From NCBI GenBank assembly GCA_945859605.1, contig OX243824.1:6339537-6403536 (forward strand): 64,000 nt of DNA, read 5' to 3'. How positions within the stretch are numbered: the first letter of the stretch is position 1; each line of letters opens with the position of its first letter. The position numbers and the translations under genes were made by a program. The notes under the pieces are model-generated. The model had not been told where the DNA came from. It saw only the letters and a program-made list of their open reading frames with translations, and ran no database searches. The stretch comes from Lumbricus rubellus (lineage: Eukaryota; Annelida; Clitellata; Crassiclitellata; Lumbricidae). Shown piece by piece: positions 21,601 through 24,600 of this stretch.

Positions 21601-24600
21601 CCAGTTTTACGTTCCTTTTGATGACCCAGTTCGTATACGAGACGCCGCTGTAGCGTTTCACGGTGCAATAAAGGGCCTCGGGACTAGCAACGGTTTATTT
21701 TGTGGCGGTAAATCACCCCACTTGTGTCGGAGAAAGGACTCCACTTCTGGTCTAGCGACTCTAGCGCTAGGAAGCTGTTTTTATTTTCGAAATAAGGATA
21801 CCCCACTTCTGACTGGTTAGCTTTCAGCGAGCGGAGACTCGCACGTAGACCTTTTGTTTCGGTTGACAGGTACCCACTTCTGTCTGAGACGGTATTCTTA
21901 GATAGCTTTTACGTGACGGTTACCCCACTTCTGACTGGTTAGCTTTTAGCGAGCGGAGACTCGCGCGATGACTCGTTTTGGTTAATAGTGACGGAGGTAC
22001 CCCACTTCTGACTGGATAGACTTCTGTGAGCAGAGACTCACGCGTAAATTGGTTTTCCTTGGTTCCTTTGAGGTAACCCCACTTCCGGACTGTAGGCTCC
22101 CAGTTCGACGTGGTTTAATTGACGGTTACTCTACTGCTGGACCGATAGCTCCCGTAGCGGAAGACCTCGCTTCTGGACGTCGGGACGGTTGACTGAGACA
22201 AGTTTGGTTGAGGATTCCCCACTTCTGGTCTTGAATTTCCGAAGGATAGATCGCTGATGGTGAACGGATGGTGATACCCCACTTCTGGCCTAAAATTTCC
22301 GAAGGATAGGCCCTGCGACAAGTAAATTGTATTTTCTGTTGCAGATGGTGATGGAACAATGGTGCAACGTGGATGGTTCGAGAGACGAGGAGATTCAGCA
22401 TGTCGCTGGATGTGAAATGCTTTGTGGTGTAGACGGAGACGGAAGCCGCCGACAGGCTCCGTGGATATACGAGATGGATTCCCGTCTTAGTCCCGACCGG
22501 TGGACTCGCTGCAACGAGGCGCTGGAGACGGAGGAATCAAGGCCTGAAACGAGGGCTATACGAGCGACGAAAGAAAGAGCTTCGACTACGATAAAAGGGC
22601 TTCGAATGTACGGAAGGAATGAAGATTATGTGAATTTGTGATAACTGACATTTGCATTGTGGTTTCTGTTGAATTGTAAACGTGTTCGTGTTGCTTTCTT
22701 GATCGGGAGATAGCGTGTTAGTGCTATCTCCCAAGATTCCAGGTAGGTAGGCGTTAGAGGGGGGTCCCTCTAGGCTTACCCACGTACGCATCTTGCCAAC
22801 GGATGCTCCGCATCAAGGTAAGGTGGGAGGAGTGTGGCGGAAATGCCACAAGACGAATTTTCGAATATGAAACATAAGCTGGTAACTGACAATACATGGG
22901 CGGCCAAAGTAGGGCCGCGGGATTCCTTATAGCGACGGAGCTATGGCCGATAGAAATTCGCGGTATATGCGAGTCGTCCGGTAAGTCGTTTCGCTACAAA
23001 TTTGCCGTGAGGCGTTAAGCGGTCAAAATTCACGGTGAAAAGTTTCACCTACGGAAGACCGATTCGTGTTTTATAGCCAAAGTATAGTGTGCAAGCAGCA
23101 ACTTTTGACTTTGGGCGCATATAAAATTTGCGCGGATAATGGTATCGAATTTCTGAATACACCGCTCGAAAGATAAATTATCGGGCTGCCGAATTGCCGT
23201 TGAGAGCTAAGCGATAACTGCAACCGATCGAAAGATATGAATTTTATTCGAATTACGGTCGAATTTACGTGCATTGGCAAATGACTGGATATAGAGAGCT
23301 ACATCTATAAAAATCGTTAAAAACATCCGTGGAATAGAGCCTGCCACACGCTGCTCTGCTTAAGTATCGGATACGTGTAGCAAGACAACACTCTGTGTAT
23401 GATTCTGCATTTGTCACGATATATACGGCGCGCTGACGACCACTCAATACCCTGGTATTCGACGTCGTTTACCGGCCAAACGTATCCAGTGGCGTATCGA
23501 TAGCTGCTAACCCGGCTAATCTGCGTCATAGCTGTTTCGGTTAAGAGTTCGAGGGCAAATTGATACCGGTTCGATTATCCGCGGTCCCCGACCGTCGGAA
23601 GACCCGTTCCGTGGTGCATGCTAAAATATCGGTAGGGCAAGGGTTTGGGCTCCCTCCCTGCTCGAGTAGCTGCCGTGTGTGTTGAGAAGGCGACCCCGCG
23701 GCGCCTGGTGTCCGCGGACGTTACCAATAAAACGTTCTGTGACTTACGAATATCTTTTCTTGCACCTGTTGGTCTGTTGTTCGGCCGAGTAGCAGGGCCG
23801 CGTTGAGTGATCGCTAGCCATACCGGCGTGTTCGAGAGATAAGGGTTGAATCCATTTCAGCGCACGACGCGCGCGGTGAAATTGTCAGTGTTGGTTGTAT
23901 GTGTCAACTTTGATCGTCGATATCTCGGTCGGTTTTCGTCCGATCGACGAGCGGCTAGTGTCAAACGACGCAGCGAGAACCGCTGCTTGATCCATCTCAC
24001 GGTACCGTTGAGTGCCCGTAGAACGGTTTTCGAGATATTTACGTTAGAAGGGAGGCCACCCGGTCTTTCCCCGGCTATATCATTTGACTCTGACTTTCAA
24101 AACCGCGCGGAGCCCCGCTCTCGCGGTAACTTTGTCGTCTGTTGACCGATCCGCACGTTCTTGGTGTCAAACTGTGCAGGCTGAGTGTGTGATTGATAAA
24201 CCGTTGAAAGATCGACCGCAGCTCTAACGGTCGTTTCTGTATCCGCTACCGAAGGAAGGCCGCCCGGTCTTTCCCCGTGTTCCTTGTAACCTGTTCGTGT
24301 ATTTGACGGGCGTGTTCTGCCCAGGAAATCTTTCGAGAGATAACACTGTGAGTAGGTGCGCCGCTGGAGGCCTTGGCCTGATCGGTATCGACCCGGGAAG
24401 AGTGCCCCGAGGTTACGCGCCGTGGGTCTTAATTCATTCATAACTATCGAACGGAGTGTCGCAGCAACAAGCGGTCTTCACTACCGTGTTACCTGTTCCG
24501 TGCCGCATCTTTCCTCCCCTTAACGAGCAGGGAGCGAGAGAAGGGAAATATTGTCACAGGCCCTGTAAGGTTCGTTGTCGGCCTGGTATCTGAGGCGGAC

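Follow-up and report, generated by a model that had tools for sequence, protein, structure and literature searches.

Joining of the genomic RNA ends before reverse transcription is, to our knowledge, known among long terminal repeat (LTR) retrotransposons from two elements, yeast Ty1 and Ty3. Ty1 genomic RNA joins its ends by direct CYC5:CYC3 pairing, which is needed for an efficient start of reverse transcription (PMC4974528). Ty3 is described as having a bipartite primer-binding site (PBS), with the tRNA proposed to bridge the RNA ends (PMC5371799, PMC4974528), and its 5' PBS tends toward intramolecular pairing (PMC11381356). Here we report a Ty3/gypsy LTR retrotransposon of the annelid Lumbricus rubellus which carries, ahead of its 3' LTR, an array of eleven short words complementary to its own PBS, and a further word copy opposite the PBS in a predicted leader hairpin. 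The element, 14,678 bp long, is complete and lies in a 64-kb window, the whole stretch of DNA that was analysed (C17:6339537-6403536 of the 787-Mb L. rubellus assembly); coordinates below are numbered within this window.

The word CCCCACTTCTG occurs ten times in the 64 kb at up to one mismatch. Nine of these occurrences are on the plus strand at 21716-22287, five exact and four with one mismatch, and the tenth is the PBS itself, read on the minus strand at 14218-14228; dinucleotide shuffles of the window gave a mean of 0.63 occurrences and a maximum of 4, with 0 of 100 reaching 10. Two weaker words, CTCTACTGCTG and CCTCGCTTCTG, raise the array total to eleven. The initial annotation, which had described about eleven PBS-complementary words before the 3' LTR, is thus borne out as nine words at no more than one mismatch plus these two. 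From left to right, all on the plus strand, the search at up to one mismatch placed word 1 (CCCCACTTGTG) at 21716-21726, word 2 (CTCCACTTCTG) at 21739-21749, word 3 (CCCCACTTCTG) at 21801-21811, word 4 (ACCCACTTCTG) at 21872-21882, words 5 and 6 (both exact) at 21923-21933 and 22000-22010, word 7 (CCCCACTTCCG) at 22077-22087, and words 10 and 11 (again exact) at 22217-22227 and 22277-22287. Between words 7 and 10 lie the degenerate word 8 (CTCTACTGCTG, 22129-22139, 3 mismatches) and word 9 (CCTCGCTTCTG, 22165-22175, 2 mismatches). Between the end of the array and the 3' LTR (22833) lie 545 bp. A count blind to the PBS led to the same word, the commonest 9-, 10- and 11-mers of 20369-22832 being pieces of it.

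When the 14,678 bp were scanned for partners, ACCCCACTTCTG paired gap-free at 12 of 12 positions with one element site only, the PBS at 14218-14229; the second-best site offered 9 Watson-Crick pairs and one G-U. By a simple formula, the chance of an exact 11-mer match to the 20-nt PBS complement is about 2.4e-6 per strand. The genomic RNA accordingly has complementary sequences close to its two ends, as in Ty1-type cyclisation, if a transcript spanning both is assumed. The match of the word to the PBS complement is just 12-13 nt long, (A)CCCCACTTCTG(G), and the terminal TACCA is absent from every unit in the window; the unit is therefore not a full tRNA 3' end. The earlier equation of the word with the 3' end of the primer tRNA stands for those 12-13 nt and fails for the TACCA end, and the identity of the tRNA is itself one that we infer (see below).

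Other roles for the words found less room. Pairing with the polypurine tract (PPT; AAGGTGGGAGGAG, 22820-22832, plus strand, abutting the 3' LTR and named from its position and composition) was rejected, the best match giving 8 Watson-Crick pairs and 1 G-U of 12. The words were also rejected as extra PPTs, being pyrimidine-rich on the plus strand, and as coding repeats they are not supported, no long frame crossing the array. Self-priming is reportedly used by Tf1; the words were rejected as self-primers on the grounds that the window units are without the TACCA end and that the LTR ends 3 nt before TGG, which fits CCA-end priming.

The 18-nt PBS, TGGTACCAGAAGTGGGGT (14212-14229, plus strand), starts 3 nt past the 5' LTR and is predicted to lie in a 46-nt hairpin (14211-14256, plus strand; -26.9 kcal/mol, z -4.7, with 0 of 200 shuffles as stable). 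The 3' arm of this hairpin, CTCGCTTCTGGTTGCCGC (14239-14256, plus strand), is a further copy of the word and holds CTCGCTTCTGG, the same as array unit 22165 (word 9). This leader hairpin with its twelfth word is an addition to the initial annotation. Leaders were read in 22 copies (the window, the family member L094 and 20 others) of the 40 family leaders listed from 195 candidates. In all 22 the hairpin with the word as its 3' arm is present, and the 50 nt that begin with the PBS differ at two loop positions only, 14230-14231. Among 60 PBS loci, taken from the first part of a list of 592 sites fetched by the first 17 nt of the PBS, the arm CTTCTGG was found in four, each with the LTR end of the family, and in 0 of the 56 others. 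The picture of a family-specific hairpin is not entirely clean: locus L181 folds differently over its PBS, at a similar stability (-23.9), and L099, one of 17 distinct non-family leaders, reached a z of -3.2, the rest being above -2.

The locus shares features with several described systems and matches none of them fully. Like Ty1 CYC5:CYC3, it has a 5' site at or near the PBS that is complementary to a site near the 3' end; unlike Ty1, which has a single CYC3 and places CYC5 downstream of the PBS, it uses the PBS itself and an array of four to nine words, and Ty1 belongs to Ty1/copia whereas the studied element is Ty3/gypsy. With Ty3 it has in common the Ty3/gypsy order and primer-related sequence at both RNA ends. 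However, the 3' part of the Ty3 site is complementary to the tRNA whereas the words are tRNA-sense and complementary to the PBS, so that the array words are not a Ty3-type bipartite PBS, whose 3' site is complementary to the primer tRNA. As for the Ty3 5' PBS, internal pairing apparently masks the PBS in tRNA-free RNA, although the arm that would do so in the studied element is a copy of the word, repeated in a distant array. Two tRNA sequences stand head to head at the PBS of the Culex element cqgypsy_1, and Culex Mag-like elements use tRNA-Leu or tRNA-Ser, three of them with tandem repeats in the 5' untranslated region (PMC3286476); tRNA-sense and PBS-sense letters occur together in cqgypsy_1 as they do here, but a PBS-complementary array before the 3' LTR is not described for those elements in the accessible text. 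Sireviruses, which are plant Ty1/copia elements, carry multiple PPTs upstream of the 3' LTR (PMC2829016). The studied element resembles them in repeating a short reverse-transcription signal there. The repeated word is not the PPT, as it is in Sireviruses: the words are pyrimidine-rich (CCCCACTTCTG) and the PPT is AAGGTGGGAGGAG on the same strand. Literature searches aimed at a PBS-complementary array located no description of one, as judged mostly from titles and the openings of abstracts and with most subscription papers outside their coverage.

Having placed the array, we asked how far it is kept. A family search with 22600-22832 gave 74 candidates, 40 matches of which were scored, the window at 100% and the others at 96-97%. 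Arrays were read in the window, L094 and 20 of the 38 other listed copies, hand-chosen to spread over contigs. All 22 copies possess the array, with four to nine words each at up to one mismatch, and neither the reverse complement nor a scrambled word occurs in any of them. Unit number and spacers vary among the 22. L094, for instance, shows 94.7% identity over the first 7.7 kb, yet its array measures 478 bp versus 636 bp between equal flanks and aligns to the window array in pieces only. Six units proved not to be near-copies of one another, the words being 88% identical and the flanks 22-37%, so that the word alone ties the units together; identity among 5000 random draws of six 11-mers never rose above 44%. 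In 121 unique units, preselected at up to three mismatches, information falls on both sides of the 12-nt word. Across the 787 Mb, the exact arrangement word-N45-75-word was found at 78 places and its reversed control at 2. Inspected by eye, the spacers are those of the family at 77 of these places, and the remaining one, C15:10809363, is a tandem PBS-like stretch of something else. At the level of the exact word and N45-75 spacing, the array looks private to the family. At the left edge of the array, TTTGTGGCGG (21699-21708, plus strand; absent in L094) can pair with 14201-14210, a stretch next to the PBS on its 5' side, and has some likeness to the LTR start; given how this match and the word/PBS match are ordered, the pairing would be crossed.

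Beyond the family, 20 ten-kilobase PBS loci were read in the same genome, one of which is L094. L083, L084 and L088 gave full-length reverse transcriptase (RT) matches at 64-69% identity and have the same PBS; no array word was found in them, and each stretch contains a second LTR, so the 3' regions were covered. L086 and L100 gave short RT matches at 34-36%, and the other 14 loci gave no RT match, two of them (L085 and L099) having masked stretches. The closest element elsewhere, L001 (IMGVR_UViG_3300006001_000003), has an RT at 72% identity, and the word array was not found in it. L001 is a Ty3/gypsy element in a virus collection, where its record of 9984 nt has direct terminal repeats of 123 nt and might represent a circle with one LTR. 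The array looks family-specific, being kept within the family and absent in four of the four nearest other elements read (RT 64-72%). Absence from all active relatives, which the initial annotation had held would speak against its proposal, is what these four elements outside the family show and is not what the 22 copies inside it show. A repeated 10-mer with its complement more than 1.5 kb upstream was found, among 74 loci of two collections, in L073 alone, with both parts downstream of its RT. A looser test, for 9-mers repeated at least three times with a complement within 600 nt past the PBS, succeeded in 7 of 19 non-family ten-kilobase loci (L083, L084, L087, L095, L097, L098 and L102), and among the first six entries per locus none lay at the PBS itself. 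From about position 6234 in PBS-first orientation, L083 also contains a 17-bp tandem repeat of about 14 copies, in its 3' region or 3' LTR, with a unit unlike the PBS.

Several units are followed by a small predicted hairpin. The class A hairpin, which lies downstream of word 3 and is shared by the units of words 5 and 6, was aligned over 14 distinct sequences with 70 of 70 cells paired and one pair alternating between UA (8) and CG (6). The class C hairpin, downstream of word 10 and also found with word 11, covers 11 sequences with 96.6% of cells paired and one pair as CG (6) or UA (5). The covariation scores were reached by 1 of 500 and 2 of 500 shuffles, respectively, although the sequences and structures of both classes were picked by eye and related sequences easily exceed shuffles. 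The covarying hairpins lend modest support to a role of the units at the RNA level.

Folding predictions also bear on the competition for the PBS. Predicted energies range from -16.5 to -26.3 kcal/mol for a word with the open PBS, against -26.9 for the leader hairpin and -39.1 for the tRNA 3' end on the PBS. In a model that treats leader and array as two strands, uses the window leader throughout and ignores pseudoknots, proteins and the remaining RNA, pairing of PBS bases at 37 C is predicted at 0.44 locally and 0.44 with the array, and at 20 C at 0.24 and 0.70, respectively. The hairpin and the array are thus predicted to compete for the PBS, with word 11 the window unit most often predicted to pair with it. 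Scrambling the words (12 times) lowered the array share of the PBS from 0.44 to 0.15, and four other 641-nt stretches in place of the array gave shares of 0-0.08. With the arrays of eight hand-picked other copies, of 21, the share was 0.83, 0.69, 0.98, 0.88, 0.92, 0.59, 0.03 (L120) and 0.08 (L094). Pairing of the words with the 5' site in genomic RNA, as first proposed, is in this way predicted to depend on the words in the window copy, and is predicted to be almost lacking in two of the eight other copies.

We tentatively favour, at a little under an even chance, the reading of the array as a repeated element for RNA pairing, serving cyclisation or PBS masking, because the word is fully complementary to the PBS only, is repeated, is kept amid changing surroundings and closes the PBS hairpin. 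Each unit would display the word ACCCCACUUCUG, in several units right before a small hairpin, and any single word could pair with the PBS at the opposite end of the genomic RNA. The PBS would then have three possible partners, namely its own leader hairpin, a 3' word and the primer tRNA. Word:PBS pairing would join the RNA ends and mask the PBS until the primer, aided by nucleocapsid, displaced the word; such masking might time the start of reverse transcription and leave the 3' end placed ready for the first strand transfer, and the many words would ensure that at least one good partner survives array turnover. That such pairing takes place in particles, and to what purpose, is our inference. 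A more specific version, possible but doubtful in our estimation, is an RNA switch in which a PBS complement has been copied into both the leader hairpin and a fast-renewing 3' array, such that PBS, arm, words and tRNA compete and a multi-copy decoy joins the ends and controls the start of reverse transcription.

Several observations weigh against a pairing element. One double change underlies each hairpin class, and neither nine array-covering stretches nor the array as a whole exceeded shuffles in folding stability, which is why evidence from unit folding is confined to the two covarying hairpins. No word:PBS duplex is predicted to be stronger than the leader hairpin (-26.9 kcal/mol), and the pairing of the L120 and L094 arrays (0.03 and 0.08, two of the eight other copies) falls below that of the scrambled-word control. 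Word substitutions are without clear bias toward keeping G-U pairing: counted by eye and by unit class, pairing survives 13 transitions and is broken by 4 transitions and 5 transversions. The array is absent from three related elements that share the PBS, so that priming at this PBS does not in general require it. The loci read, having been sampled by one PBS, could not reveal a family with another PBS and its own matching words, and none turned up.

The same array might instead be a DNA array for a sequence-specific protein, the likeness to the PBS being incidental or the protein reading the PBS too. The Drosophila gypsy Su(Hw) insulator reportedly consists of 12 sites with a degenerate 10-12-bp word in the 5' region, bound by a zinc-finger protein, so that a gypsy element would already offer such an array; both have about a dozen degenerate short words in a gypsy element, whereas the insulator is said to lie in the 5' region and to have no link to a PBS. 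Sharp motif edges, many copies, unrelated spacers and the lack of a long frame there all suit a protein array. We nevertheless consider it unlikely, since an 11-mer match to the PBS complement is improbable by chance, and neither a further word copy opposite the PBS in the hairpin nor hairpins after words would be expected of it.

Pairing could also act on DNA. In minus-strand cDNA the words, as CAGAAGTGGGG, could bind the PBS copy that lies at the cDNA 3' end, closing the cDNA into a circle and aiding plus-strand transfer. PBS copies act in the second strand transfer of reverse transcription, the complementarity is equal in minus-strand cDNA, and about 0.5 kb separates the array from the downstream PPT, which places it near the start of plus-strand strong-stop DNA. 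Against this, pairing on DNA does not predict the covarying hairpins after some words, though inverted repeats might also act in DNA, and the leader hairpin would presumably form in the minus strand too and compete. We regard this version as quite unlikely.

Silencing and a priming block by tRNA-derived fragments (tRFs) at PBS sites have been reviewed for mammalian endogenous retroviruses (ERVs) (PMC7472051), and words and hairpin could in principle shield the PBS from such 3'-tRFs. A perfect PBS is said to be the most exposed to tRFs, the 22 family leaders read hold one unchanged 18-nt PBS, and hairpin and words are both predicted to cover it. Yet the precedent comes from mammalian ERVs and host tRFs are an assumption, the arm is missing in 56 of 60 loci with the same PBS, and the array is missing in three of the three related elements read in the same genome, which makes a shield improbable. 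To a similar degree improbable is a neutral by-product, an old word-bearing insertion spread by unequal exchange and now without function, for although unit number shifts fast among copies that are about 95-97% alike elsewhere and the array is missing in other elements read, the spacers have diverged past recognition and the words have not, at least four being present in each of the 22 copies.

Should the pairing-element reading be true, this animal gypsy element would join its RNA ends in a way of its own, through a PBS complement that is repeated and renews itself, and it would offer a test of the means by which retroelements conceal a perfect primer site from fragments of tRNA. The four to nine words per copy form a built-in natural dose series.

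As to the primer, we take the 18-nt PBS to fit the 3' end of animal tRNA-Leu(UAA), which is thus the putative primer, with CCCCACTTCTGGTA as the expected end of the matching gene. The tRNA-gene pattern GGTTCGANNCCCACTTCTGGT was found at 0 places in the genome and TTCRANNCCCACTTCTGG at two, neither of them a tRNA gene, patterns that leave room for a gene with another T-loop or an assembly gap. The PBS TGGTACCAGAAGTGGGG itself occurs at 592 places and is common to many different LTR families in the genome. All 60 loci read have T as the 18th PBS base, beyond which the families diverge. In the studied family, 14230-14231 are the only variable positions in 50 nt of leader (T8 C10 G1 A3 and C9 T13 in 22 copies), and in the putative primer tRNA they would presumably lie opposite A58 and G57. 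This variation looks like the footprint of primer-tRNA copying that reached methylated A58 or went beyond it. For Ty1 and Ty3, the PBS is reported not to derive from the tRNA (PMC7472051; PMC5371799), so that the studied family would differ from both. At L181 (C2:10278358-10278578) the PBS is followed by 26 nt, GGACATATGTCC, with a different T-loop. We take this stretch to resemble the complement of the tRNA-Leu T-stem and variable arm, perhaps a long primer-tRNA copy kept in the element. Two PBS copies lie 138 bp apart in L102 (C1:32442150-32452149), each in an LTR-end-like context, and such pairs at the same distance are also found at C2:34450487/34450625 and C2:45911696/45911834; the LTR end of the L102 family, ACGCCACAAAG, resembles that of the studied family.

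The remaining features of the element are those of an intact and recent insertion. The 5' LTR (11182-14208, plus strand; 3027 bp, with ends TGTGGCGGA...TCCGCCACA) and the 3' LTR (22833-25859, plus strand) are identical at 3027 of 3027 positions, and the target-site duplication TATT flanks the element on both sides (11178-11181 and 25860-25863, plus strand). LTRs with TG..CA termini, target-site duplication, PBS and PPT together give the structural features of Metaviridae. Downstream of the PBS, the gag-pol open frame (14315-20368, plus strand) begins at ATG 14315, the frame being open from 13586, and this single frame, searched against Pfam in four pieces, spans gag, protease, RT, RNase H and integrase in Ty3/gypsy order. 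The domains Retrotrans_gag, RVT_1, RT_RNaseH, Integrase_H2C2, rve and Integrase_p58_C were matched, and protease matches scored below the Pfam cut-off; the assignment to Ty3/gypsy follows from the RT-integrase order and the domain matches. The few named RT relatives of eukaryotic source are animals. The 2.46-kb 3' region (20369-22832, plus strand) is without a long open frame, the longest stop-to-stop stretches being 115 aa on the plus and 136 aa on the minus strand. Soon past the array, at 22327-22347, TTGTATTTTCTGTTGCAG followed by ATG resembles a 3' splice site, and the ensuing short frame is shifted in L094. Elsewhere in the window, a minus-strand stretch near 56.1-56.7 kb, to which Pfam gave no match, resembles an exon of animal phosphorylase kinase, and minisatellite-like tracts at 47609-48385, 54550-55164 and 56401-56727, the last of them beside that stretch, are open in several frames.

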